Source of the DNA: Salinicoccus carnicancri Crm | GTDB taxonomy: Bacteria > Bacillota > Bacilli > Staphylococcales > Salinicoccaceae | Direction of reading: 5' to 3' | Assembly (NCBI RefSeq): GCF_000330705.1 | Contig: NZ_ANAM01000004.1 | Location: 1-44,095 of the forward strand | Length of the DNA: 44,095 bases | Shown: positions 16,046-32,262 of the stretch, piece after piece | Layout of the letters: the number at the start of each line of letters is the position of its first letter | Position numbering within the stretch: the stretch's first letter is position 1 | The notes under the pieces: generated by a model | Seen by the model: only the letters and a program-made list of their open reading frames with translations | What the model was told of the DNA's origin: nothing | Database searches by the model: none | Program-made: the position numbers and the translations under genes

Positions 16046-16732
16046 TCAATCCCCCAAAATATTTTTGAGCTCCTCAATCTTTTCTCGGGAAACCCTGCTT
16101 GCGAAACTGCCGTCTACCCTGACTCCGGTTCCGAAGTGTATGGCTTCTGGAGCTGCTGTATCAACGATTTCCAAAGCGTTTTCCAGTTTGATGCCGCCGC
16201 CGGGCATGACTGTGATCCCCAATTCTTTTCCACGGGTGGCGAGTTTCTGCAGCTGTTCGACATTATCCGCGCTGGAACCGGGTCCGCCGGATGTCAGGAC
16301 GGTCGTGATCTGGGGGGATTTGCTCAAAACTTCCAATGCCGTCATCTGGTCCCCGATTTCATCAAATGCCTTATGGAAGGTGATTTCCATTTCTCCTGCT
16401 GCATCAGTCAATCTCATCATCGATGCAGTATCGATTGCATGATCATCGGTGATGACACCGGTCACGATGCCGTTCGCCCCCTGTTCTTTGACGAAATTGA
16501 TATCCTCGACCATCTGTCCGACTTCCTCATCCGTATAACTGAACGTGTCGTCGTGTGGCCGTATCATGACATTAACCGGTATTTCAGATTCCCTTACAGC
16601 TTCACGGATCAGTTCATATTCAGGTGTCAGCCCGTCTTTGTCCATCTCCCCGCACAGCTCGATGCGGTCGGCCACCGTCTGATTCAGGTCACGCACGTCT
16701 TTCAAATCTGCCGCGATGATTTCCAAAAGCAT
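16046..16732 (-). CDS. cutC: CutC family protein
   Basis: A 228-residue TIM-barrel protein of the CutC family. Signatures: 'LLEIIAADLKD', 'ADRIELCGEMDKDGLTPEY', 'IPVNVMIRPHDDTFSYTDEE', 'EITFHKAFDEIGDQ', 'VLTSGGPGSSADN' and 'ITVMPGGGI'. CutC was named for copper tolerance in E. coli, but a direct role in copper binding is disputed. GAGG lies 8 bases before the ATG. It is divergent from the barrel protein at 16816. Confidence 0.92.
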   Translation of the reverse strand: MLLEIIAADLKDVRDLNQTVADRIELCGEMDKDGLTPEYELIREAVRESEIPVNVMIRPHDDTFSYTDEEVGQMVEDINFVKEQGANGIVTGVITDDHAIDTASMMRLTDAAGEMEITFHKAFDEIGDQMTALEVLSKSPQITTVLTSGGPGSSADNVEQLQKLATRGKELGITVMPGGGIKLENALEIVDTAAPEAIHFGTGVRVDGSFASRVSREKIEELKNILGD

Positions 16733-16815
16733 TTTATCATCCTCTATTCTATAATGAGTGTATTGGTTATATTATAGCCCACAGGGTTTTATTGACAAAT
16801 AAAAGGAGTGGTTCC

Positions 16816-17803: not shown

Positions 17804-18751
17804 ATGACCACAATCAAGGATATCTCCAAACATGTCGGTGTTTCAGTATCAACAGTTTCCAGGGCACTCAACAGTTCGGGGTATGTCAGTCCCGAGGTTA
17901 AAAGAAAAGTCATGGCGGCGGCAGAAGAACTCGGGTATATCCCGAATGAGACGGCACGAACCCTGAATACCAGCATTTCAAAGGTTATCGGGGTGTTGGT
18001 TCCTGATATAACCAATCCCTTTTTCCCGAAAATAATCCGGGGAATTGAGGATGCTGCATTGGAAAAGGGCTACAGGATCATTATAGGTAATACGGACCAT
18101 GATGCTGAAAAAGAGAAGAAGTATGTTGAAATGTTCCATCAAAACAACTGTCTCGGAATCATTTCGGCTACGTGGAGCATAGATGGGCCGGGTGCCAATT
18201 CCAGGATACCGATTGTTCTGTTGGATAGAGTAGTGGATGACAGTATCTCGGTCCAGGCAGACCATTATAAAGGTGGCATGCTCCAGGCTGAGCATCTCAT
18301 TGATAGTGGAGCGACGAAAATTCTCCTGATACAGGGCCCTGATACTTATAGTTCCTTTGTTGACCGGTACAACGGTGCCCTTGGAACTTTGAAGCATAAT
18401 AATATCGAATTCAGTATTCTTGAATACGGTCCATCAGCGGATCCCATGGGAAATATTAATGACGGGATAATCAGGAAATACGATGGCTTCATCTGCCCCA
18501 ATGATCTGCTGGCCTACAGGCTTCTGAACTTCATGTACGAAAATGGAGTGGAGGTACCGGCAGAGGCAAGGGTGATCGGGTATGATGATCTGGAATTTTC
18601 CAAGTATGTCTATCCATCTTTGACTACCATCAGGCAGCCGGCTTATGAACTCGGGGAGAAAGCATTGAAAACATTACTGGAATATAAGGATGGCATAGTA
18701 ACAGATAAACGGAATTTTGATGTGCAGCTCATTAAAAGAAATTCGACGTAA
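17804..18751 (+). CDS. LacI family transcriptional regulator (RbsR-like)
   Basis: A 315-residue repressor. The N-terminal helix-turn-helix and hinge read 'TTIKDISKHVGVSVSTVSRA' and 'VMAAAEELGYIPNETARTL'. The periplasmic-binding-protein-like effector domain starts 'IGVLVPDITNPFFPKIIRGI' and ends 'ARVIGYDDLEFSKYVYPSLT'. It precedes a nucleoside transporter and a nucleoside hydrolase. Matching palindromes lie before it and before the transporter, so it probably represses both and responds to ribose, a nucleoside or a derivative. The ligand is inferred from context. Confidence 0.88.
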   Translation: MTTIKDISKHVGVSVSTVSRALNSSGYVSPEVKRKVMAAAEELGYIPNETARTLNTSISKVIGVLVPDITNPFFPKIIRGIEDAALEKGYRIIIGNTDHDAEKEKKYVEMFHQNNCLGIISATWSIDGPGANSRIPIVLLDRVVDDSISVQADHYKGGMLQAEHLIDSGATKILLIQGPDTYSSFVDRYNGALGTLKHNNIEFSILEYGPSADPMGNINDGIIRKYDGFICPNDLLAYRLLNFMYENGVEVPAEARVIGYDDLEFSKYVYPSLTTIRQPAYELGEKALKTLLEYKDGIVTDKRNFDVQLIKRNST

Positions 18752-18773
18752 CGGCAGATTTTTTTCGCAATTC

Positions 18774-18789
18774 ATGGAAACGTTCCCAC
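18774..18789. promoter_or_regulatory. second LacI-type operator before the nucleoside transporter
   Basis: ATGGAAACGTTCCCAC matches the palindrome at 17775 except at two positions in its right half. It lies 61 bases upstream of the transporter start. Confidence 0.7.
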
Positions 18790-18849
18790 ATAAATTTGTG
18801 AAATTCTGCTTTGCAAAGATAAAACAGTCAAATTGAAAGAGGGGATAAA

Positions 18850-20088
18850 ATGATTTCAATATTATGGGGTGTAATGGGTTGCTCAGTATTGCTGGCAATA
18901 GTGTATCTCTTCAGTGAGAACAAAAAGGCAGTTAATTGGCAGACGTTTTTAATCGGGTTTTTACTGCAGGTAATACTGGGCTTCGTAGTTTTGAGATGGA
19001 GTGTCGGAGTCAGCATCATTGAGTTCCTGTCTGATGGTGTGAACGCAATAATGTCTGCAGGGCAGGAAGGGCTGACATTCGTGTTCGGAGAGCTCGCAGA
19101 TCCTGACAGGGAAGGTGGATCGATATTTGTAATCAACGTATTGGCAATCATGATCTTCTTGACTTCCCTGATTTCAATACTGTACCACTTTGGCATCATG
19201 CAGTTGTTCGTAAGGATCGTCGGGGGCTTCATTTCCAGGTTCATGAAAACCAGGGCTGTTGAATCAACTAATGCCGTGACCAACATGTTCCTGGGAATGA
19301 CACAATCCGCCATTTCGGTAAAACCGTATATTTCAAACATATCAAGGTCACAAGTATTTGCAATTATGGTAGGCGGGCTTGCGTCAGTTTCCGGAGCTGT
19401 TCTGTTCGGGCTCGTGGCGCTGGGTATTCCTGTGGAATACTTGCTGTCAGCAGCAGTCATGTCTGCTCCGGCAGGGCTGATGGTTGCGAAGCTTATGATT
19501 CCGGAAACAGATGAAGCAGTCCAGGATGAATGGAAAGATATCGACCTTGCCCAATCATCTGCCGAGGGTGAAGATCCGACATTCATGGATGCTCTGATAA
19601 ATGGTTCGAGAGATGGTGTCACTCTGACCGTAAACTCTGCCATGGTGCTTATAGCAATCATTGGCCTGGTTGCCCTGGTGGATATCATTTTGGGCAGCAT
19701 TGGTGGCCTGGTCGGGTATTCAGAGCTGTCATTGAACCTGATTTTCGGGTATCTGTTTGCACCTGTGGCTTTTCTGATAGGTATACCATGGGATGAAGCG
19801 ATATTGGCAGGCGGCCTGCTGGGGGAAAAGGTGATATTGAATGAATTTGTGGCATTTACATCCTTTACAGAAGTAATCGATCAGTTCTCGGAGAAATCTG
19901 TAGCAATCCTGTCCTTTGCTTTGGCAGGATTCGCCAATATAGGCTCTGTTGGAATTGTCCTCGGCATCATGCTGGGAATCGCCCCGCGCCGTAATAAGGA
20001 AATCCAATCAATGGCGGGAAAATCGTTGTTTGCAGCCACAATAGCAAATCTTTTGAACGGTGCAATAATAGGTATGTTCTTCTTTTAA
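18850..20088 (+). CDS. concentrative nucleoside transporter (NupC/CNT family)
   Basis: A 412-residue membrane protein with the CNT layout: N-terminal helices, a core with 'VTNMFLGMTQSAISVKPYI', 'ALGIPVEYLLSAAVMSAPAG' and 'LGEKVILNEFVAFTSF', then 'SFALAGFANIGSVGIVLGIM'. These carry the nucleoside- and cation-binding motifs (G-x-T-E/Q, N-E-F). It imports nucleosides by H+ or Na+ symport. GAAAGAGGGG precedes the ATG. It lies between the LacI regulator and the nucleoside hydrolase and is preceded by an operator. Confidence 0.92.
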   Translation: MISILWGVMGCSVLLAIVYLFSENKKAVNWQTFLIGFLLQVILGFVVLRWSVGVSIIEFLSDGVNAIMSAGQEGLTFVFGELADPDREGGSIFVINVLAIMIFLTSLISILYHFGIMQLFVRIVGGFISRFMKTRAVESTNAVTNMFLGMTQSAISVKPYISNISRSQVFAIMVGGLASVSGAVLFGLVALGIPVEYLLSAAVMSAPAGLMVAKLMIPETDEAVQDEWKDIDLAQSSAEGEDPTFMDALINGSRDGVTLTVNSAMVLIAIIGLVALVDIILGSIGGLVGYSELSLNLIFGYLFAPVAFLIGIPWDEAILAGGLLGEKVILNEFVAFTSFTEVIDQFSEKSVAILSFALAGFANIGSVGIVLGIMLGIAPRRNKEIQSMAGKSLFAATIANLLNGAIIGMFFF

Positions 20089-20109
20089 TAAATCATAGGA
20101 GGTAATTGT

Positions 20110-21039
20110 ATGAAAAAAGTTATTTTGGATGTTGATACAGGAGTGGACGATGCACTGGCAATCATCTACGGCCTCGAGAGCGAAGTTCTGGAATTTCTGG
20201 GTATCACAACGGTAAATGGGAATGTTCCACTTGAGATGGTTAATAGGAACACTTTGAAAGTATTGCAGATGATGGGAAGGAAAGATATAAAAGTCTATTC
20301 AGGAGCACCGAATCCATTGGTAAGGGAAAGGGAACATGAATATAGTGTTCATGGAACCGATGGTATCGGCAATGCCCTGGATAATCTGGCTCTTGAAGAT
20401 GAAGTGCAGGATCAATTTGCCGCTGATTTTATAATCGAGAGTGCCAAAAAACACAAGAATGAGTTGACTCTGATTATGGTGGGACCATTGACCAACCTGG
20501 CACTGGCACTGAAAAAGGAACCAAGGCTATCAGAGTGGCTGGATGAAGTCATAGTGATGGGCGGTCTGGTGAGCCAGGCAGGTAAAGGGAACAAACTGCC
20601 GAACTCGGAGTTCAATATTTACGCGGATGCAGAAGCAGCCAAAATCGTCTTCCACAGTGGTGCTGAAGTGACTTTGGTCAGCCTGGATGTCACACACCAG
20701 ACATTTCTGACCATCGATCATATTGAGAAGTTGAAAGGCACGAAATATTACGAATTTGTAAAAAATGCAACCGGCGTTTTCAGGAAGTTCAGCATGCAAA
20801 GGTATAATATTGACGGCTGTGCCCTGCATGATCCGCTGACAGTCGGTTATGTAATCAACCGTGATTTCCTGGAAACCGGAAAATATTATGTAGACGTTGA
20901 GACTGTGAGTCCGTTAGGGTACGGACAGACTATATGTGATTTCAGAAATCTTTGGGGCAAAGAGCCAAACGTGAACATATGTCTCAATGTCGATGGTGAA
21001 GGTTTTGTGGAGCATTTTGTAGATACAGTTTCAAAATAA
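20110..21039 (+). CDS. inosine/uridine-type nucleoside hydrolase
   Basis: A 309-residue nucleoside N-ribohydrolase. The calcium-binding N-terminal motif is 'ILDVDTGVDDALAIIYGL', with further landmarks 'LGITTVNGNV', 'ELTLIMVGPLTNLALAL', 'VIVMGG', 'NSEFNIYADAEAAKIVF', 'VTLVSLDVTHQ' and 'ALHDPLTVGYVIN', where Asp is a metal ligand. It releases ribose and base from imported nucleosides. AGGAGG lies upstream and the gene starts 21 bases after the transporter, so they form one salvage operon under the LacI regulator. Confidence 0.92.
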   Translation: MKKVILDVDTGVDDALAIIYGLESEVLEFLGITTVNGNVPLEMVNRNTLKVLQMMGRKDIKVYSGAPNPLVREREHEYSVHGTDGIGNALDNLALEDEVQDQFAADFIIESAKKHKNELTLIMVGPLTNLALALKKEPRLSEWLDEVIVMGGLVSQAGKGNKLPNSEFNIYADAEAAKIVFHSGAEVTLVSLDVTHQTFLTIDHIEKLKGTKYYEFVKNATGVFRKFSMQRYNIDGCALHDPLTVGYVINRDFLETGKYYVDVETVSPLGYGQTICDFRNLWGKEPNVNICLNVDGEGFVEHFVDTVSK

Positions 21040-22337: not shown

Positions 22338-22769
22338 ATGAAAGACGTCGTAAAGTACCGGCCGGTACCGAAAGGACAATATGAACTTGCGACACGCTTT
22401 GGGAATATCATCTATACCGCAGGTATGACGCCGACGGTGGATGGCGTGCTTATAAAGAGGGGGAAGCTGATGGCCAGCCATTCCGAGGAGACATACAGGC
22501 TGATCGTGCAGCAGGCGACATGCAACGCCCTGTCCGTTGCAGAAGATGAATTGCAGAAAGGTGAAACCATCAGCCAGGTCATCAGCATGACAATATATAT
22601 CAATGCTGAAGAGCGGCTTCATGGTCATGCAAGGATCGCAGACTTCGCATCTGCATATCTGATGGAGGAACTTGGCCAAAGAGGCATCGGCAGCCGGACG
22701 ACGGTGGGTGTCAGTTCACTGCCCGGCGATTCGCCTGTTGAGGTGCAGCTGGTTGTCGGTGTGGGTTAG
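22338..22769 (+). CDS. RidA family protein
   Basis: A 143-residue YjgF/YER057c/UK114-type protein. Landmarks: 'NIIYTAGMTPTVDG', 'ISQVISMTIYINAEERLHGH', 'FASAYLMEELGQRGIGSRTT' and 'VGVSSLPGDSPVEVQLVVGV'. The Arg in 'GSRTTVGVSSLP' corresponds to the enamine-deaminating Arg of RidA. AAGGGGG precedes the ATG. True RidA removes reactive 2-aminoacrylate; several subfamilies exist and this longer form may differ in substrate. Monocistronic, convergent with the SIS gene. Confidence 0.85.
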   Translation: MKDVVKYRPVPKGQYELATRFGNIIYTAGMTPTVDGVLIKRGKLMASHSEETYRLIVQQATCNALSVAEDELQKGETISQVISMTIYINAEERLHGHARIADFASAYLMEELGQRGIGSRTTVGVSSLPGDSPVEVQLVVGVG

Positions 22770-22793: not shown

Positions 22794-22825
22794 GGACCGC
22801 TGTGTAAACAGATACACAGCGGTCC
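22794..22825. terminator. bidirectional hairpin between RidA and the PTS operon
   Basis: GGACCGCTGTGT (22794-22805) pairs perfectly with ACACAGCGGTCC (22814-22825) around an 8-base loop. It lies between convergent stop codons and probably ends both transcripts. T runs are modest on both sides. Confidence 0.75.
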
Positions 22826-22834
22826 CGTATATTT

Positions 22835-23563
22835 CTAGAGTTGCACCCTGTTTTTATATTTTCCAATCAATTTCTGGTTATGAGCATCTGCCCCCTCCAT
22901 ATTCCCGCTCAGAAAAATCGGAGGTGTATAGCCGGATTCTGCCAGTAGAACAACCGACTCTGAAATTATGGCATTTAATATAGAAGCACCTGTAACTGTG
23001 GAACTGGGCGAAAATTTTTCTGATACTTGATGGTGGCTCATTATTGCATCACCGGCGGGGGAATGGTTGTCGATTACAAGGTCGGCAACATCATACAGAT
23101 GTTTCCCTGAAGGATGTCTCGAGGGCTGACTCGAGGAATATTCCTTTGAAGTGATGCCAATGACGGTTGCTCCGTATTTTCTGCCGTAAAGGGCAACGTC
23201 CACGGGAACAGGGTTTCTGCCTGATGTAGAGATGACAAACAGCAAGTCTCCGCGCCTTATATCCTGAGATTCCATAAATTTCACGGCATAATTTTCGCTT
23301 CTTTCCAATTGAGAAGATTTGAGTGCCCCTTCATGAAGCATGAGTGGTTCATGGAATATGGGATGGATGGGGACGAGGCCACCGGCACGGTAGTATACCT
23401 CTTCAGTAAGGATATGTGAGTGTCCGCAGCCAAAAAGATGAATGATCCCATTGTTCTTAATGCTATCTGCCATATATGAAGAAGCCTTTTTCATCTTCTC
23501 CGCCTCTGAATTTTCTACATTTTCGAGTATTCTTTTTATCTCATTGAAATAAGAGCTGATCAT
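22835..23563 (-). CDS. SIS domain sugar-phosphate protein (UPF0309 type)
   Basis: A 242-residue SIS-fold protein, probably an isomerase or deaminase/lyase-like enzyme acting on a phosphosugar. Sugar-phosphate-binding landmarks: 'GIIHLFGCGHSHILTEEVYY', 'DLLFVISTSGRNPVPVDVAL' (the Ser/Thr-rich phosphate loop), 'GATVIGITSKEYS' and 'TVTGASILNAIISESV'. It resembles the UPF0309 proteins. Its start overlaps the creatininase-family stop by ATGA, and AAGGGGG gives a good binding site. It is the last gene of the PTS operon, so its substrate should derive from the sugar phosphate made by the PTS. Confidence 0.83.
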   Translation of the reverse strand: MISSYFNEIKRILENVENSEAEKMKKASSYMADSIKNNGIIHLFGCGHSHILTEEVYYRAGGLVPIHPIFHEPLMLHEGALKSSQLERSENYAVKFMESQDIRRGDLLFVISTSGRNPVPVDVALYGRKYGATVIGITSKEYSSSQPSRHPSGKHLYDVADLVIDNHSPAGDAIMSHHQVSEKFSPSSTVTGASILNAIISESVVLLAESGYTPPIFLSGNMEGADAHNQKLIGKYKNRVQL

Positions 23564-24297
23564 TCCGCGGCCCCCTTGTTCTGAGTTAGTATATTCACCA
23601 TATTGTCCAGGACTTTTTCTAATATATACTCCCCTTTGCTGTCATCAGCCAGGGTGGCATCGCCAAGTACGGCTGACTCCGTGAACACTTCCCATGGTGT
23701 GGGAGTCACGTCAGCCTCCACCGAAATGTCAGGAATGTCCCTGAGGGCTTTATCCATGTCGACTTTATCGGGGGAGAGATGAAGCATATATGATGTTTCT
23801 ATTTCACACGCATGAAAATAGGTGCTGTGAGCAGCATTGTCCTCTCTGACTTCCTCTGCGTATTCCTTCATTCCAGGATAGAAGAAGTAGTACACTTTTA
23901 AATCCGGAATTTCATCAAAAAGTTTGCGGGCCGCCTCTTTCAAAGCGGTACTATTGCCCAGATGCCCATTCATCATTACGAATGATGAAAAGCCCTGATT
24001 GTGAATGCTGTGCCCGATATCATATAAAATACTGATCAAAGATTCGTTGCTTACACTTATGCTCCCCGGAAAGTTTCTCAGGCTCCATACCTGACCGTAT
24101 GGAAGCGTGGGCAGTACAAATGCATCCACTCTCTTTGCAAGTTTGCCGGCCATCTCTTCAGCCAGAATATTGTCAGTTGAGAGGGGGAGATGCGGGCCAT
24201 GTGCTTCCACAGCTCCGACAGGGAGTACTGCAATTTTCTTTTCTCTTATCTTGTCTGAAACCTCATATGAATTTTCAAATTCGAATTTCATGGTCAT
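23560..24297 (-). CDS. creatininase family protein
   Basis: A 245-residue metal-dependent hydrolase of the creatininase family. Metal-site motifs are present: 'AVLPVGAVEAHGPHLPLSTD' (Glu, His, His, Asp), 'FVMMNGHLGNSTALKEAARK' and 'HACEIETSYMLH' (His, Glu). Family members hydrolyse cyclic or linear amides (creatinine, formamidopyrimidines, MftE-type peptides). Its place between a lactonase-like gene and a SIS gene in a PTS operon suggests it opens an amide or lactone of an imported sugar derivative, which is inference. ATGs at 24297 and 24291 are both possible. Confidence 0.88.
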   Translation of the reverse strand: MTMKFEFENSYEVSDKIREKKIAVLPVGAVEAHGPHLPLSTDNILAEEMAGKLAKRVDAFVLPTLPYGQVWSLRNFPGSISVSNESLISILYDIGHSIHNQGFSSFVMMNGHLGNSTALKEAARKLFDEIPDLKVYYFFYPGMKEYAEEVREDNAAHSTYFHACEIETSYMLHLSPDKVDMDKALRDIPDISVEADVTPTPWEVFTESAVLGDATLADDSKGEYILEKVLDNMVNILTQNKGAAE

Positions 24298-24303
24298 CCA
24301 TCC

Positions 24304-25296
24304 TTATTTTTTAAAGGTGAAACACCTTTTGGGATTATCAATGAAAAACTTACGCACCAGTCTTTCTGCATCATACCCGTTCTGCTTTGCCTCTTCTTTG
24401 AAACGCGGTACCCAGCTCCCCAAAATGTTCTGAAACCCCAGTCCATGATCGTAATGTCTGAAATAGCTTTTCCTCGCTGTATCTCCGCTGACAAGTATCT
24501 GATCTTCGAACCCTTTGTCTACAAGCGCCAATATACATCTTATTCTCTCGCTTTCAGGTGCATATTTAATTTTTGAGATACCATCGAAGGATAGGAATGC
24601 CCCGGTTTCGGCTACTTTGTTATGGTAGAAAGGGTCCAGGTTCCTATCCATATGTCCAAAGCTCATGGAAGAAAGATCAACATCCTCCTCTTTTAACAGC
24701 TGTATCTGCTCCAAAGCCATAGTGCCTGCTTCGGTATGCGAATGCATGGGTGCTTTAGTTTGATGGTGTGCCCTTGCCACAGCACGCAAAGTTTTTTCTT
24801 CCAACGGGCTGATCCTGTTATACCCCGTGCCGAATTTGACCTGTCCGGCTTTGAATCCTGTTCCTTCCATCCCTTCCTCCACTTCGCTGATGACAAAATC
24901 AGCGAGTTTGTCTACGGACGTGGCTTCAATCCACTGGTCGTAAGTTTCATGCGCGCCAATCACGTATTTAAGATGATCCGGGATTTTGGCAGACCACAGG
25001 AAACCTTTATTGAATCCGGCGGTTCCGATGATGTTTACCCCTGTCTCATTTGAAATAGCGGCAACACTTCTGATATCTCTGCCGTAATCAACGGCAGTGG
25101 CATCGACTATGGACTCACCCCCCAGTTCCTTGAAATCCATAACTTCTTTCAACGAAGCCGCCGTATTATCGAGGATGAGATCATCCTGTCCCTTTTCTAC
25201 CCAATAGGGAGGACGACAGACTATGTGTTCGTGACTGTAGGTGACACCCAGCTCTTCAGGGTTCATATCTCTCTTAAATGTTCTGATGAAACTCAT
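24304..25296 (-). CDS. phosphotriesterase-family lactonase-like hydrolase
   Basis: A 330-residue amidohydrolase-superfamily barrel of the phosphotriesterase family. The metal ligands follow the pattern: His-x-His in 'GVTYSHEHIV', the bridging Lys in 'GQVKFGTGYN', His in 'KAPMHSHTEAGT', His in 'MSFGHMDRN' and Asp in 'ILVSGDTARKSYF'. Characterised relatives next to PTS genes are phospho-furanose lactonases, so a sugar-lactone phosphate is the likeliest substrate class. AAGGGG precedes the ATG. It lies in the operon with an ascorbate-type PTS, which fits a lactone-like sugar. Confidence 0.87.
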   Translation of the reverse strand: MSFIRTFKRDMNPEELGVTYSHEHIVCRPPYWVEKGQDDLILDNTAASLKEVMDFKELGGESIVDATAVDYGRDIRSVAAISNETGVNIIGTAGFNKGFLWSAKIPDHLKYVIGAHETYDQWIEATSVDKLADFVISEVEEGMEGTGFKAGQVKFGTGYNRISPLEEKTLRAVARAHHQTKAPMHSHTEAGTMALEQIQLLKEEDVDLSSMSFGHMDRNLDPFYHNKVAETGAFLSFDGISKIKYAPESERIRCILALVDKGFEDQILVSGDTARKSYFRHYDHGLGFQNILGSWVPRFKEEAKQNGYDAERLVRKFFIDNPKRCFTFKK

Positions 25297-25320
25297 AATT
25301 CCCCTTCTTTCAATCTGTTA

Positions 25321-26631
25321 TTAAACGAATAGGAGCTCTGCTAGCAACTTGACTATTGGACCCAGTATGAACATGTCCGAATCGGCGGCCCACATAGCTG
25401 TATCGGGTATCGTATCCGACAGCAGCATCCTGACCATGACATACTGGCCCCAGGCAACCACAGTCGCAGTAGTGAATCCGCCGATGACAGCGCCTCTGGC
25501 GCCACCGGTCGAGTTGCCGAATACGCCTGCAGTGGCGCCATGGAAAAACAGGACGATCATTGTCGGGACGAAAACATATGCAACGGTATTACCAAGTATG
25601 AACAACCAGATGAGGGCTCCTGCAAAAGCACCGACAAACCCCAGTATTACTGCGTTGGGTGCATAAGGGAATACAATTGGTGAATCGAGTGCAGGCTTGG
25701 CACCCGGAACAATTTTTGTCGCTATCCCCTTGAATGCCGGTACCATTTCACCGATGAACATTCTGACACCGACAAGTACCACCGCGATACCGGCAGTGAA
25801 CATGAATGACTGGATGATGGAGTAGACGATGAAATTCTGATCACCTGAAGATGCAACCAATTCTTCAGCACCGGGAGTGTTTCTCAATGTCACGACTATC
25901 GCACCTGTCAAGAACAGAAGACCCATGGTCAATGCTGTTATCACATTGGAATCCCTCAGGAACTCCAAACCATTCGGGACTTTGATCCTCTCGGAATCGT
26001 TGTCTTTATTACCGAACCATTTTCCCATCAGTGCAGCCAACAGTGAAACTGAAGCCGACGTATGGCCCAGGGCAATTTCATCATTGCCTGTAACTTTTCT
26101 CATGAAAGGCTGCACGATTGCAGGCTGCAGGGTCCAATACAGTCCCATAATGATGGACAGGAAGATGACCAGTTGCCAGAAGCCGACATCCGGCGCAGAC
26201 TGTACAGCAATACCTGCAAAGATTGTTGTAGTCCAGAACATCATGTGTCCTGTCAGGTAGATGTACTTAAATGGTGTGAATCTGGCCAGCAGTACATTGA
26301 GTAGGAAGCCGAGCGACATCACGAGAGCAACAATGCTTCCATATTCTCCCGTGAAAGCTTCCTGTCCCATGTAATCTGAAATGGACTCGGCCCCCAGGTT
26401 GAAGACTTCCGCCCATAGCGGCTCGAAAACTGTGAGTGATCCTGAAATGATGTCGGCGCCTGCTGTAATAATCAGGAATCCGATGATTGCTTTGAATGTG
26501 CCGCTTAATACCTGGCTGGTTGTCTTTTTCTGTACGAGCAGTCCAATCAGGACAATGGTGCCTATGAGGATGGCCGGCTGTCCAAAAATATTGGTTGCTA
26601 TCCACATAACAACATCAGTAATAGTGTTCAT
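25321..26631 (-). CDS. PTS EIIC component, ascorbate (UlaA/SgaT) family
   Basis: A 436-residue membrane transporter with about eleven helices. Typical UlaA-family stretches: 'IFGQPAILIGTIVLIGLLVQ', 'ILSGTFKAIIGFLIITAGAD', 'LTGHMMFWTTTIFAGI', 'EMVPAFKGIATKIVPGAKPA', 'LDSPIVFPYAPNAVILGFVG' and 'FFHGATAGVFGNSTGGARGA'. It imports and phosphorylates a sugar with the EIIA and EIIB encoded directly upstream. UlaA homologues carry substrates other than ascorbate, and the operon lacks the Ula catabolic enzymes UlaD, UlaE, UlaF and UlaG, so the substrate is open. Confidence 0.92.
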   Translation of the reverse strand: MNTITDVVMWIATNIFGQPAILIGTIVLIGLLVQKKTTSQVLSGTFKAIIGFLIITAGADIISGSLTVFEPLWAEVFNLGAESISDYMGQEAFTGEYGSIVALVMSLGFLLNVLLARFTPFKYIYLTGHMMFWTTTIFAGIAVQSAPDVGFWQLVIFLSIIMGLYWTLQPAIVQPFMRKVTGNDEIALGHTSASVSLLAALMGKWFGNKDNDSERIKVPNGLEFLRDSNVITALTMGLLFLTGAIVVTLRNTPGAEELVASSGDQNFIVYSIIQSFMFTAGIAVVLVGVRMFIGEMVPAFKGIATKIVPGAKPALDSPIVFPYAPNAVILGFVGAFAGALIWLFILGNTVAYVFVPTMIVLFFHGATAGVFGNSTGGARGAVIGGFTTATVVAWGQYVMVRMLLSDTIPDTAMWAADSDMFILGPIVKLLAELLFV

Positions 26632-26653
26632 TTTATCCCAACCCCTTTGGTTA

Positions 26654-26923
26654 TTAATCTACGTTCTGCTGTACGGCTTCAATTATTTCTTCCATATCGA
26701 AAAAGCTGTTGATAATAATGACTTTGGCAGTATGTTCTTTCAGACTTTCCGCTATTTCGTTACTTGTGAAGATGTAATCAGCGTTCATGCTGGAAGCGGC
26801 AGAGAGGTCAGTGTTCTCAACATCTGCCTGATAGCCATTGTCTGCGAGTGCCTGTTCCACATTCATTTTTAAAATCAGGCTTGTTCCCTGACCCAATCCG
26901 CAAACTGTAAGTACTTTTTTCAT
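26654..26923 (-). CDS. PTS EIIB component, ascorbate/galactitol type
   Basis: An 89-residue EIIB with the phosphocysteine loop 'VLTVCGLGQGTSLILKMNVE' (Cys8). Cytosolic phosphocarrier between EIIA and EIIC. The in-frame TTG at 26929 abuts GAGG, so the ATG at 26923 with 8-base spacing is preferred. It follows the EIIA stop by 2 bases and precedes EIIC by 22. Confidence 0.9.
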   Translation of the reverse strand: MKKVLTVCGLGQGTSLILKMNVEQALADNGYQADVENTDLSAASSMNADYIFTSNEIAESLKEHTAKVIIINSFFDMEEIIEAVQQNVD

Positions 26924-26925
26924 TT

Positions 26926-27366
26926 TCAATTCCTCTTTTCTATGATATTTATAATTTCATCGATGCTCTTTGCATTTATAAGTTCATCAGCTGCTTCTTT
27001 TTCATTGAGCAGTCGGGTGAGCTTTTGAAGTATTTCCAGGTGTTCATCTCCTGATGTAGCCCCCAGCCCGAACACTAAAGAAACGGGATCATTGGTTTTA
27101 TGACCGAATTCAACAGGAGACTTCAACTTGACCAGAGATACTGATGCATCTTTAACTCCATCTTCAGGTCTTGCATGCGGAAGGGCGATTTTAGGGGATA
27201 ATACAAAATATGAACCATTTTCTCTGTAGGACCTGATCATGGCTTCAATGTATTGATGTTCGACACCGTCCGCGTTGGCAAGTAATGTACCTGCGCGGTG
27301 TATAGCCTCTTCGGCATCGGAAGCGTCGAATTCAGCGTCTATCAGTTTCTCTGTCAGGAATTTCAT
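26926..27366 (-). CDS. PTS EIIA component, fructose/mannitol/ascorbate class
   Basis: A 146-residue EIIA-2 domain protein. The phospho-His is in 'ALPHARPEDGVKDASVSLVK', followed by 'LVFGLGATSGDEHLEILQKL'. It takes phosphate from HPr and passes it to EIIB. The ATG at 27366 has AAGGAG 9 bases upstream; the ATG at 27375 abuts that site. Its 5' end overlaps the 3' end of the regulator gene by 35 bases, so they are translationally coupled. Confidence 0.9.
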   Translation of the reverse strand: MKFLTEKLIDAEFDASDAEEAIHRAGTLLANADGVEHQYIEAMIRSYRENGSYFVLSPKIALPHARPEDGVKDASVSLVKLKSPVEFGHKTNDPVSLVFGLGATSGDEHLEILQKLTRLLNEKEAADELINAKSIDEIINIIEKRN

Positions 27367-29461
27367 GATTACCATCTCCTTTGCCTTCGTTAAAATTCAG
27401 CACCTTGATAATTTCACGGCGATCCTCTGCATTTAGAATATAGTTCTTTCTGGTCCTGTCAGAAAGGATGCCGGTAAGCTGTCCCATTGCTTTTAAATGT
27501 TTTTCATTATCTTCTGAAGCCAGGACTATAAACAGTTTTACAGGTTTGTCTTTTATCTCTATGCTGTTTTTAACAAGCAGGAGACTCATCCCTGTATGCC
27601 TGACCCCATCCGCGGGTAGTGCATGGGGGAAAGCTATGGAATCTGAGGTGACCATATAGGTTCCTTTATCATTGATGAGTTTCTTCATGGCTGTTACATA
27701 TGAATATGCAATACATTCATCTTCTATCAACGGCCCCGAGGCGATATCAATAGCGTTTTCCCAGTCTTCAACCGTATTGACTACCTGGATCCTGTCGGGA
27801 GTCAGCAAATCCTTGAGCAGCGGCTTTTGGATATCTGGTTCTGTATTTACAGTGGGTGCAAGGTATTTTATAATTTTTTCTTTTAATGATTCTGAGTCCT
27901 TTATTTCAGCATACTGAGCGATGATATCAAGGAGTGTATCCACTTTCGGCATTTCATTTTGTCTATACGTATAGTCATCCAGTTTGCCATGGGTCAACAG
28001 TGTTTCCTTATCTTTTGAACTGAAGAGGGGATTGACCACTATCACTGGAACGCCTTTATCTTCCAGAGGAACACTGGAAACGACAAAATCCACAGTACTG
28101 GCCAGTGAATCCAATCCTTCATAGTCCTTTTCGGCGAATAAAGAAACAATTTCATATTCAGGAAGCAGATTGATCATCTGATTTTCCATTATCCTCGAGG
28201 TGCCGATGCCATTAGGGCATACGATCATGATTCTCAAAATACGCTCGTTTACAGTCAGTGCGTTTCTTTTCAGCCACCCGCCAAAATGAATCGCGATATA
28301 TGCGAGCTCATCATCATTGACTTTTTGACCGACCAATTTTTCCAGAGGTTGGACAATCCCCCTGGTAATTGAAAATATCTCTTTGTAATCCTGTTTGATT
28401 TTGTCTGTTAGCGGATTTGAAATATTTATATGATACTTAATTCTGTAATATGCCGGCTTCATATGAAGCAGCAGGTTCTGGTACAACGAATGCTTTTCCG
28501 GAAAGGTCACAGCAGCTTTCTGCTGAAAACTGTCAATCAGAATATTGATGATGGATTCAAGATTTAAAATATTTTCAGTTTCATAATCACTGGACTTTGA
28601 AAACCTGATTTTTGCGCCAAGTAAGATCCGGGTGAAGTAGACTGACTCATCCTCAGTGAAAGTCCCGAAAAATTGTTCGAATATACTGTTGGCGATTTTA
28701 AATTCAGGTGCCGCTTTGATTGCTTCTTTTTCCGAATGCTCAAGATACAGTGTCTTACCGTTCCTCATCCTCTGATAAAAGCAGAGCATCCATGTAGAAA
28801 TCAAAGGACGGATATCCTCAGTAATACCGACGCCTGATTTCTCTTCATATGCACTGAGCAGGTTTCCGACCAGATGTATATCAGATGGAGTAAAGAGCTT
28901 TTCCTGCATATTGATCTGCAGATCTTTTTCCGTCGAATGGCCGGCATTGGAAGATAGGTTCTGTACAGAATCCATTATCATCTGGCGGATGCCGATTTCA
29001 TTTCCTTCAACCAGATATCCTTCCGAAATAGAAGAGCGGATTGATATACCCTGCTTATTTATGCACTTTCTTACTTGCTTAATGTCATCGATTACTGTGT
29101 TGCGACTGACATTGAACAAAGATTGAAAAGAATCTATAAAATAAGGAGTGTTAATATCCAATGACAGCCTCAGGAAAATCCATGCATGCCTTTCTTCTTT
29201 GGAGTATTCATAATAGGAGACACTTTCCCGGTCCGCCGGTGACCGGATTGCAGCCTTCACTTTGGCGGGTATAGAGATCCCCATGCCATGCACTTTTTCA
29301 ATCTGGCTGCCGTGTACATCAGTCAGCCAATGGTCAATTTTTTCAATGTCATTGTAAATGGTCCTCTTTGAAACGTTCAAAGCACCGGCCAGTTCTTCTA
29401 TCGATAAGTACTTATCGCTTTCTGCGAGTAATCGCAGAATGGCAGAACTGCGTTTATCCAT
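27332..29461 (-). CDS. PRD-containing PTS-regulated transcriptional activator (MtlR/LicR type)
   Basis: A 709-residue modular regulator: N-terminal helix-turn-helix ('YLSIEELAGALNVSKRTIYN'), a second Mga-like DNA-binding region ('FNVSRNTVIDDIKQVRKCI'), two PRD domains (about 190-395, with 'YIAIHFGGWLKRN'), an EIIB-Gat domain with Cys in 'IMIVCPNGIGTSRIMENQM', and an EIIA-2 domain with His in 'IAFPHALPADGVRHTG'. Phosphorylation by HPr and the local EIIB/EIIA should tune its activity to sugar supply. The TTG at 29479 overlaps the binding site AAAGGAAG, so the ATG at 29461 is chosen. First gene of the operon, most likely its activator. Confidence 0.92.
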   Translation of the reverse strand: MDKRSSAILRLLAESDKYLSIEELAGALNVSKRTIYNDIEKIDHWLTDVHGSQIEKVHGMGISIPAKVKAAIRSPADRESVSYYEYSKEERHAWIFLRLSLDINTPYFIDSFQSLFNVSRNTVIDDIKQVRKCINKQGISIRSSISEGYLVEGNEIGIRQMIMDSVQNLSSNAGHSTEKDLQINMQEKLFTPSDIHLVGNLLSAYEEKSGVGITEDIRPLISTWMLCFYQRMRNGKTLYLEHSEKEAIKAAPEFKIANSIFEQFFGTFTEDESVYFTRILLGAKIRFSKSSDYETENILNLESIINILIDSFQQKAAVTFPEKHSLYQNLLLHMKPAYYRIKYHINISNPLTDKIKQDYKEIFSITRGIVQPLEKLVGQKVNDDELAYIAIHFGGWLKRNALTVNERILRIMIVCPNGIGTSRIMENQMINLLPEYEIVSLFAEKDYEGLDSLASTVDFVVSSVPLEDKGVPVIVVNPLFSSKDKETLLTHGKLDDYTYRQNEMPKVDTLLDIIAQYAEIKDSESLKEKIIKYLAPTVNTEPDIQKPLLKDLLTPDRIQVVNTVEDWENAIDIASGPLIEDECIAYSYVTAMKKLINDKGTYMVTSDSIAFPHALPADGVRHTGMSLLLVKNSIEIKDKPVKLFIVLASEDNEKHLKAMGQLTGILSDRTRKNYILNAEDRREIIKVLNFNEGKGDGNHEIPDRETDRR

Positions 29462-29499: not shown

Positions 29500-29514
29500 A
29501 GATAATTGTTATCT
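29500..29514. promoter_or_regulatory. palindrome downstream of the PTS operon promoter
   Basis: AGATAATTGTTATCT is a perfect 6+3+6 palindrome between an AT-rich -10-like region (about 29515-29527, minus strand) and the regulator start. Possible operator; no protein is assigned. Confidence 0.4.
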
Positions 29515-30695: not shown

Positions 30696-31943
30696 TTATG
30701 ATGTTCTTTCCACCAGCCTCAGCATCGTCTTATACAACAGCTCCGTACCAATCGCAATGTCTTCATCGTTCGAATATTCGTCGGGGTGGTGGCTGATGCC
30801 GTCTTTTGACCTTACGAATATCATTCCCATGCCGCACGCGTCTGCCATGTGGCTGGCGTCATGGAATGCGCCGCTCATGAGGACGGGCGGGGTGAGGTTC
30901 ATGGTTCTGCTTTCTTCTGACATGATATCCATGATCTCTCTGCTGGCCTCTTTTGGTGTGGTGCCGCCGTCGTCTGATATATCATGGCGCAGTCCGTGTT
31001 TTTCCGAAATATCCTTCACGGCCTCCCTTAACTGCTGTTCGTATTCATCACGTCTTGCGAGGTCGCTGTCCCGCAGGTCGATGGTGAATTCGACTTTTTC
31101 CGGAATGATGGAGCGGCCGCCGGGGTAGACCTTGAGATCTCCGACGGTACCGACTGTGGGCGCACCGGCTTCAGTCTGGACGATGCTGTTGAAGGCGGTG
31201 ATGATTTCTGCTGCACCGGTTAAGGCATCCTTCCTCATGGGCATGGGGACTGTGCCGGCGTGGCCGGAGGTGCCTGTCAGTGTGACGGTCAGCCACCGGG
31301 GTCCTGCGATGCCGCTGACGATTCCGATGGGCTCATCCTGTTCCTGCAGGTTCGGTCCCTGCTCTATGTGCATCTCGATATAGGATGAGATTTTACGGGT
31401 ATCGTATTCTGATTCCTGCAGTTTCCCCGGATCGGCCCCGAAGTCGGTCAGTGCCTCCCGCCTTGTCACACCGTCTTCATCCGCTCTTTCAAGTTCACCC
31501 GGCTCGAGAGAACCGAGTATACCCCTTGAACCGAAGAGCCCGACGCCGAACCGGTGCCCCTCCTCGTCGCAGAATGATACAACTTCAACCGGGACTTCAG
31601 GCTGGATGCCATTTTCCCTCATTGTCTGAACAGCTTCAAGAGCGCCCAGCACACCGATGGTGCCGTCAAATCTTCCGCCGGAGGGCTGTGAATCGATATG
31701 GGAGCCGAGCATGACAGCCGGTTGACCTTGATTCTTCCCCTCCAGCCGACCGATAAGATTGCCGAAATTGTCGAAGCGGGTTTCGAGGCCGGCTTCATCC
31801 ATCCATTTCCTGACGAGCTGCATGCCATCTTTATATTCTTCCGATAACGCCAGTCTGCATACACCGGTCTCGCCGACCCTGCCGATCTCTGACAGCTCGG
31901 CCAAACGTCCGGACAGGCGGTCACTATTGATAGTCAGATCCAT
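30696..31943 (-). CDS. M20-family hydantoinase/carbamoylase amidase
   Basis: A 415-residue Zn-dependent amidase of the N-carbamoyl-L-amino-acid hydrolase / allantoate amidohydrolase group. Metal-site motifs: 'VMLGSHIDSQPSGGRFDGTI', 'VVSFCDEEGHRFGVGLFGSR', 'YIEMHIEQGPNLQEQ' and 'MSGAFHDASHMADACGMGMI'. The dimerisation domain contains 'GTSGHAGTVPMPMRKDAL'. It releases the free amino acid or ureidoglycine plus CO2 and NH3. The ATG at 31943 is preferred: AAAGGAAA lies 8-9 bases upstream and abuts the ATG at 31952. It begins 1 base after the small membrane ORF's stop, so they are coupled. Confidence 0.9.
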   Translation of the reverse strand: MDLTINSDRLSGRLAELSEIGRVGETGVCRLALSEEYKDGMQLVRKWMDEAGLETRFDNFGNLIGRLEGKNQGQPAVMLGSHIDSQPSGGRFDGTIGVLGALEAVQTMRENGIQPEVPVEVVSFCDEEGHRFGVGLFGSRGILGSLEPGELERADEDGVTRREALTDFGADPGKLQESEYDTRKISSYIEMHIEQGPNLQEQDEPIGIVSGIAGPRWLTVTLTGTSGHAGTVPMPMRKDALTGAAEIITAFNSIVQTEAGAPTVGTVGDLKVYPGGRSIIPEKVEFTIDLRDSDLARRDEYEQQLREAVKDISEKHGLRHDISDDGGTTPKEASREIMDIMSEESRTMNLTPPVLMSGAFHDASHMADACGMGMIFVRSKDGISHHPDEYSNDEDIAIGTELLYKTMLRLVERTS

Positions 31944-31944
31944 T

Positions 31945-32262
31945 TTAAACATTTCCTTTCTTTTTCTCCATGAAGAGTACTGCGGTGATTGTCAGTGCCA
32001 CGCACAGGGCGATCTTTATGAGTGAGAAAATCGGTGAGAACAGGATGATCATCCCGATGATGAGGGCGACAACACCGTACTGGGGTGTCTTATACGCGAA
32101 CTGCCCGAGCACCGCGCCAAATATGGCGGGGAGCACGAAATTGAATGCACCTTCTATATACGGCGGAATCAATGTGATGAGGAATGTTCCCCCGATGACC
32201 ATGATGACAAGGACGCCAACATTGGTCAGGGAAGCGACGGTGATTCCGAACACGCCGGCCAC
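31945..32262 (-). pseudogene. small membrane ORF, possibly 5'-frameshifted or truncated
   Basis: A 105-residue frame with about four hydrophobic segments ('VLVIMVIGGTFLITLIPPYI', 'FNFVLPAIFGAVLGQFAY', 'VALIIGMIILFSPIFSLI', 'IALCVALTITAVLFM') ending in a Lys-rich tail. GTG at 32262 has no ribosome binding site. A good site, GAGGTGAT, lies about 20 bases upstream but leads to a TTG in another frame. Removing one base in the ACCCTGG run would join that TTG to this frame. It is therefore either a frameshifted gene, the tail of a larger permease, or an unusual start. It is coupled to the amidase gene. The family is not recognised. Confidence 0.45.

Follow-up and report, generated by a model that had tools for sequence, protein, structure and literature searches.

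The window analysed here is a stretch of 44,095 nucleotides from Salinicoccus carnicancri Crm. It carries a seven-gene phosphotransferase system (PTS) operon that runs from 29461 to 22835 on the - strand, and we read this operon, at a probability of roughly 40%, as a catabolic unit that converts an N-acetylated amino-sugar lactone to 2-keto-3-deoxy-6-phosphogluconate (KDPG, or KDGP in one aldolase name used below). The most likely substrate would be the lactone of 2-acetamido-2-deoxy-gluconate or of its manno epimer. A first-pass annotation, made from the window sequence alone, had proposed the import of a sugar lactone or amide-bearing sugar, followed by opening and isomerisation. The present reading is more specific because aldolase genes, linkage to nag genes and NagR-type boxes in relatives of the operon point to KDPG. 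An N-acetylated aldonolactone would fit the combination of a UlaA-type PTS, a lactonase, an amide hydrolase, an enzyme resembling NagS and a KDPG end point.

We infer the substrate, the order of steps and the role of the creatininase-family hydrolase (CRN) from gene content, conservation, aldolase insertion, nag linkage, boxes and residues, all read from sequence. The EIIA, EIIB and EIIC components would import the lactone and phosphorylate it (6-phosphate). The SIS protein, acting like NagS, would remove the 3-hydroxyl group (next to the lactone carbonyl) as water to give a 2-acetamido-2,3-ene, and the phosphotriesterase-family protein (PTE) would open the phospho-lactone. CRN would hydrolyse the acetamide, and the enamine would collapse without pyridoxal phosphate (PLP) to KDPG and ammonia. 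A KDGP/KDPG aldolase, which many species encode within the operon and the genome of the window encodes elsewhere, would release pyruvate and glyceraldehyde-3-phosphate. That these steps amount to a new pathway for oxidised N-acetylhexosamines, free of PLP and coupled to a PTS, in which SIS dehydration of a phosphorylated lactone, opening, and enamide hydrolysis by a creatininase-family enzyme lead to KDPG, is a tentative and rather doubtful proposition. If true, the pathway would be spread over Bacilli and some other classes of the phylum, would lie within the NagR (N-acetylglucosamine, GlcNAc) regulon in some lineages, would assign functions to three orphan groups of enzymes in one stroke, and would be a Gram-positive answer to oxidised amino sugars freed by chitin-cutting enzymes. 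The substrate class and the product are now concrete, and hence testable by coupled assay.

Gene content and conservation

As the first-pass annotation had described, all seven genes lie in tight order on one strand, the - strand. Each product scores above its Pfam cut-off. The first gene (27332..29461; PF00874, PF00359, PF08279) encodes a PRD-type transcription regulator with HTH_11 and Mga HTH domains, two PRDs and an EIIA-like end; an EIIB-like match is narrowly under cut-off. It is followed by PTS EIIA (26926..27375; PF00359, 1.5e-34), with a likely start at 27366 judged by sequence, EIIB (26654..26929; PF02302, 2.1e-14), with a likely start at 26923, and a UlaA-type EIIC (25321..26631; PF03611, EIIC-GAT, 1.5e-119) that reaches 515 bits against a cut-off of 380 for NF006919. 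PTE (24304..25296; PF02126), CRN (23560..24297; PF02633, 1.6e-67) and the SIS protein (22835..23563; UPF0309/PRK02947, SIS_2 Pfam, NF002805 at 332 bits against 135) complete the operon, with proposed functions of phospho-lactonase, N-deacetylase and dehydratase, respectively. The two overlaps noted earlier can be read in the sequence: 35 bp between the PRD and EIIA genes, if EIIA begins at the better-placed ATG at 27366, and ATGA between CRN and SIS.

The operon resembles the ula L-ascorbate operon in having a UlaA-type EIIC with EIIB and EIIA. It differs in its lactonase, which is of another family, and in its enzymes: Pfam and NCBIfam scans of the seven operon proteins and three neighbour proteins gave no match to UlaD, UlaE, UlaF or UlaG, which bears out the earlier claim that these are lacking. 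None of the neighbours scanned encodes a ula enzyme: a RidA-like gene (22338-22769, +) is convergent with the operon, and the other two encode an auxin-efflux-type permease and an EamA transporter.

PTE was found at 64% identity or more in 18 of 398 sampled Bacilli genomes, that of the window included. The search for PTE, CRN and SIS genes beside a UlaA-type PTS, which the first-pass annotation had suggested, recovered the order IIA-IIB-IIC-PTE-CRN-SIS in 17 of the 17 other loci of this class sample; L052 has an additional CutC gene within the row, and the EIIC of L050 is shortened. The PRD gene is present in 10 of the 17 (the L037 copy is cut by a contig end and the L052 copy is shorter) and was not found in L039, L041, L043, L048, L049, L050 and L051. 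A scan of named genomes gave 194 relatives, and among the best 80 of these (hereafter the named loci) IIA, IIB, IIC, PTE and CRN occur in 80, SIS in 79 and PRD in 76; the six downstream genes are in order in 79, with SIS missing in L134. Thus, we conclude from the conserved six-gene order that the operon is a real unit and not a product of chance.

Carriers among the named loci include Virgibacillus, Oceanobacillus, Lentibacillus, Listeria, Paenibacillus, Geobacillus, Planococcus and others, and the whole operon is present in Listeria loci L094 and L109. Within the genus, a CRN orthologue (at least 89%) occurs in 3 of 12 genomes, including that of the window. When 398 genomes were drawn from across the phylum, PTE was identified (E 1e-100 or better) in four, including the window genome; the other three loci lie outside the class Bacilli and all have CRN and SIS too. 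A scan of three bacterial families for further carriers returned only genomes already sampled. Neighbouring genes were surveyed in 90 distinct loci, of which only the stretch around the operon was covered. An enzyme I gene lies close behind the operon in 13 of these, all Paenibacillus (including L090, L095, L097 and L099), with HPr in at least 6, which suggests a dedicated phosphoryl supply. One Bacilli locus, L053, has PTE, CRN and KDGP aldolase genes without PTS genes, beside an FGGY-type kinase and an ABC sugar transporter (named by eye); this gene set is a possible non-PTS version.

The proposed lactonase, the SIS protein and the creatininase-family hydrolase

PTE aligns to 3pnz_A over 330 of 330 residues (E 2.2e-156). 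We take 3pnz to be the Listeria phospho-sugar lactonase Lmo2620, which, together with Bh0225 of Bacillus, reportedly hydrolyses D-lyxono- and L-ribono-1,4-lactone-5-phosphate in vitro. Residue conservation was judged over 18 operon proteins, from the window and the 17 class-sample loci. H22, H24, K154, H187, H215 and D272, presumably the metal residues, are invariant in 18 of 18, as are K242, K244, R275 and Y278, presumably the phosphate contacts. PTE also matches 3msr and is related to the phospho-furanose lactonase of Mycoplasma, whose setting we assume to be a PTS as well; it differs from that group in reaching 158 bits against the cut-off of 630 of the corresponding model, NF045706. The 3pnz match and the UlaA-type EIIC above cut-off support a phosphorylated lactone as the substrate, and the sugar-lactone part of the earlier proposal gains from both. 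The operon has proved to be conserved, and the one activity that we found assigned within it is that of the lactonase in vitro; to our knowledge, only the lactonase has been characterised in the Lmo2620/Bh0225 systems, and we know of no assignment for the other operon enzymes or the physiological substrate.

Many SIS proteins are isomerases, and with its SIS_2 Pfam match the last protein of the operon could be read as one, so that import and opening of a sugar lactone or amide would be followed by isomerisation, as first proposed. Opening a lactone yields an acid that has no carbonyl left for an isomerase, however, and the relatives in solved structures point elsewhere. At E 0.001 only two were found by sequence, 3cvj and NagS (9eol; phmmer, 155 bits). 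The residues H48, S49, R59, S84, E87, S112, S114, D172 and N221 correspond to H53, S54, R64, S91, E94, S119, S121, D179 and N228 of NagS; all nine residues studied in NagS are thus kept, and they are invariant in 18 of 18 operon proteins. Because NagS, the sole characterised relative matched, is a dehydratase, and because its studied residues are kept, isomerisation is probably wrong, the isomerase scheme as a whole is very unlikely, and we propose that the SIS protein is a dehydratase. NagS of Streptomyces dehydrates GlcNAc-6-phosphate to a 2,3-ene, 6P-chromogen I, which NagA deacetylates to an enamine and then an imine (PMC12680351). The same source restricts NagS orthologues to Streptomycetaceae, at 58.7% identity or more and beside dmdR1 (PMC12680351). 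The Salinicoccus protein belongs to the same UPF0309/SIS family but falls outside this orthologue group, and dmdR1 is not among the window genes beside it.

CRN scores under the cut-off of every characterised creatininase-family model that it matched: 140 against 235 for the creatininase NCBIfam equivalog, 88 against 245 for IolN and 122 against 172 for MftE. Its predicted structure (pLDDT 90.8) has creatininases as best PDB matches (TMq 0.77-0.85). In an alignment to creatininase, E31, H33, D42 and H112 are kept, at positions that we take to be those of metal ligands, whereas G114 stands at the position of Glu122, presumably a ligand of the second metal, so that this Glu is not kept. The nearest precedent for the CRN step would be NagA acting on the NagS product.

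Aldolases, amino-sugar genes and NagR-type boxes in relatives

Of the 80 named loci, 34 have a KDGP aldolase gene (PF07071) between CRN and SIS; among the 90 distinct loci this gene was counted in 35. The encoded proteins are DgaF-like, yet under the NCBIfam cut-off. In L146 the same slot is occupied by an Eda-type KDPG aldolase, which is of a different family. Eda also occurs in paralogous operons, GntR-IIA-IIB-IIC-PTE-Eda-CRN, where it lies between PTE and CRN (L054, L055, L080, L088 and L091); in the Oceanobacillus loci L080, L088 and L091 the paralogous operon and the first one are divergent. The presence, in one type of operon, of two aldolase families that share a reaction argues for KDPG as the product. 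The genome of the window has two Eda-type aldolase genes elsewhere, in hexuronate- and galactonate-like operons (assigned by eye). A DgaF search of this genome gave no match, but its controls gave no match either.

Amino-sugar markers (nagA, nagB, nagE, nagK, nanE, nanA, chbG and murQ) were counted in the 90 distinct loci; this set and the reference proteins of the survey were chosen after the neighbourhoods had been viewed. At least one marker is present in 17 loci. nagA is near the operon in 10, all ten above the nagA model cut-off, and nagB in 11; the nagE tally is 5, including the protein of L076, which scores best as a glucose PTS, narrowly under that cut-off. By chance, ~0.3-0.6 nagA loci would be expected in 90, assuming independent genomes with one nagA each, a figure limited by the fact that 4 of the 10 nagA loci are Planococcus or Planomicrobium. 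The layouts vary: nag genes are upstream on the same strand, downstream on the same strand, or divergent. nagA-nagB-nagR directly precede IIA in L043 and L048, nag genes are divergent from IIA in L050 and in L051 (the latter with nagB and nagR only), and nagA follows SIS in L089. A genome search found nagA in the genome of the window as well.

murQ lies in the covered stretch within ~7 kb in L088, L089 and L091; in L147 it adjoins the PRD gene. The substrate could accordingly be a muramic-acid derivative (muramic lactam or the lactone of N-acetylmuramic acid), with CRN opening the lactam, PTE the lactone, and the SIS protein eliminating lactate in the manner of MurQ. We consider this highly unlikely: such a route has no need for the KDGP/KDPG aldolase found in the operon of so many loci, the four loci have a separate MurQ, and Salinicoccus and Listeria are not known as spore formers. 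In its favour, the SIS protein is related to MurQ, as a weak match and PMC12680351 indicate.

A NagR-type box is located upstream of nagA in the nagA-nagB-nagR-IIA arrangement of L043 and L048; in L050 and L051 it lies in the divergent promoter region that precedes IIA. These four loci are all without the PRD gene. Among five nag-promoter regions, four have a box that scores 9 of 10, and the same score is reached in 73 of 3000 random windows (260 bases) of those loci; the scoring used a looser consensus, brought in once a stricter pattern had failed. The stricter, dre-like pattern had no match at the nag-linked promoters and 27 sites in the 1.6 Mb of the 80 loci; its matches in L053, L055, L081 and L088 are away from the operon start. 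No box is present in L043 and L048 between nagR and IIA. Relative to the idealised NagR operator, GTGGTCTAGACCAC, as given in PMC4333415, the L043 box is one base off and those of L048, L050 and L051 are two bases off. A refined pattern matches these four boxes exactly, which is circular because it was derived from them. Separately, L081 has a near-perfect NagR-like palindrome at position 2326, a good distance upstream of the operon.

The nag and mur neighbours could also reflect a general clustering of sugar genes into islands, the operon serving an unrelated sugar. The late choice of the marker set and the two loci (L063 and L067) with galactose genes instead of amino-sugar genes are consistent with this. 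On the other side, the several layouts are unrelated, and in the loci where the PRD gene is missing a NagR-type box stands before nagA-nagB-nagR-IIA or at the divergent promoter before IIA. We therefore regard simple clustering as quite unlikely.

Several results weigh against an N-acetylated amino-sugar lactone as the substrate. The in vitro substrates reported for the lactonase are pentonolactone phosphates without nitrogen, 73 of the 90 loci have no amino-sugar marker in the stretch covered, and the galactose loci count here too. The window itself has no nag neighbour, no NagR box when up to 3 mismatches are allowed and no aldolase in the operon, so that the amino-sugar link comes via relatives; support for the amide-bearing half of the earlier proposal is indirect and comes from the neighbourhoods and boxes of part of the carriers. 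L044 is without a box though it is beside nag genes, and L050, one of the box loci, is the locus with the shortened EIIC. SIS is missing from the main operon of L134 and from the paralogous Eda operons of L054 and L055, so that SIS dehydration would not always be needed; for the paralogous operons this absence is claimed for these two loci alone, which are seen whole, because the stretches of L080, L088 and L091 stop within CRN. Deacetylation by CRN is our proposal. Finally, according to PMC12680351, three SIS homologues of non-Streptomycetaceae origin showed negligible or no dehydratase activity on GlcNAc-6-phosphate, and the Salinicoccus protein therefore probably acts on a related but different compound.

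A nitrogen-free aldonolactone (pentono-1,4-, L-gulono- or D-mannono-lactone) would account for several of these points. PTE would open it, the SIS protein and CRN would complete a 2-keto-3-deoxy acid phosphate, and CRN would act, like IolN, on a non-amide. The UlaA-type EIIC, the substrates said to be used by the Listeria relative, the IolN match of CRN, below cut-off as it is, and the many loci without markers all agree with such a substrate. It would leave the nag linkage, the NagR-type boxes and the NagS residues unexplained and gives no obvious role to CRN, and we consider it unlikely.

Co-occurrence with LPMO_10 was tried as support for chitin oxidation as the source of an N-acetylated lactone, and rejected. 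The LPMO and PTE searches were each made on 398 Bacilli genomes, taken as one sample. LPMO_10 is not enriched: it occurs in 1 of the 18 carriers and in 47 of the 380 other genomes (Fisher p 0.71). This also counts against the proposed substrate, and the source of the compound would then be other organisms or different oxidations.

Known pathways and neighbouring genes

Two known pathways are close to the route proposed for N-acetylated lactones. The dgaABCDEF D-glucosaminate pathway of Salmonella (PMC9529869) shares PTS import, a KDG-6-phosphate product and an aldolase of the DgaF family, but uses a PLP enzyme that acts on glucosaminate-6-phosphate. No such PLP ammonia-lyase (DgaE) was noticed by eye among the neighbour clusters common to at least 4 of the 80 named loci, where no DgaE query was made. 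The ong oxidised-chitin pathway of Pseudoalteromonas likewise converts a GlcNAc aldonic acid to KDG-6-phosphate through deacetylation and loss of ammonia, whereas its own features (PMC9537276) are a symporter, non-phosphorylated intermediates, the deacetylase OngB, the deaminase OngC (grouped with PLP enzymes) and the kinase KdgK.

In the open full-text literature searched we found no assigned sugar for the operon and no paper on the lactonase itself, nor a full text combining at least four of the themes phosphotriesterase, creatininase, SIS, PTS, ulaA and glucosaminate. The Listeria EIIC of this operon is, we assume, lmo2649. In the portions of the literature available to us, lmo2647-lmo2652 appear in expression lists only. 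In one Listeria array study, 94 genes were upregulated in soil at all sampling times, and lmo2649 and two chitinase genes are on that list (PMC3179493), a link that is suggestive only.

Upstream of the PRD gene an inverted repeat, AGATAA-CAA-TTATCT (29500..29514), is a possible operator as judged from its sequence. Between SIS and the convergent RidA-like gene lies a terminator-like hairpin with a 13-pair stem (22794..22825); it is weak evidence, given 7 such sites in the region against 7.3 in shuffles.

RidA proteins accelerate imine hydrolysis. The RidA-like gene is outside the operon, and across L036-L135 it neighbours the operon only in Salinicoccus: full length, at 90% identity, in S. sediminis, and as a 27-residue piece in L037 and L057. 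A RidA gene is also present in the ong cluster (PMC9537276).

A CutC-family gene (16049-16735, -) lies ~6 kb from the operon. Of the 90 distinct loci, 12 have a CutC gene close to the operon, and in L052 the inserted gene stands between IIC and PTE; CutC may be part of the pathway. On the other side of the operon, a hydantoinase/carbamoylase-family amidase-like gene (30696-31952, -) is separated from it by a transporter gene and is not a member. A LacI regulator, a NupC-like transporter and a nucleoside hydrolase stand in a row at 17804-21039 (+) and probably form a nucleoside-use operon.

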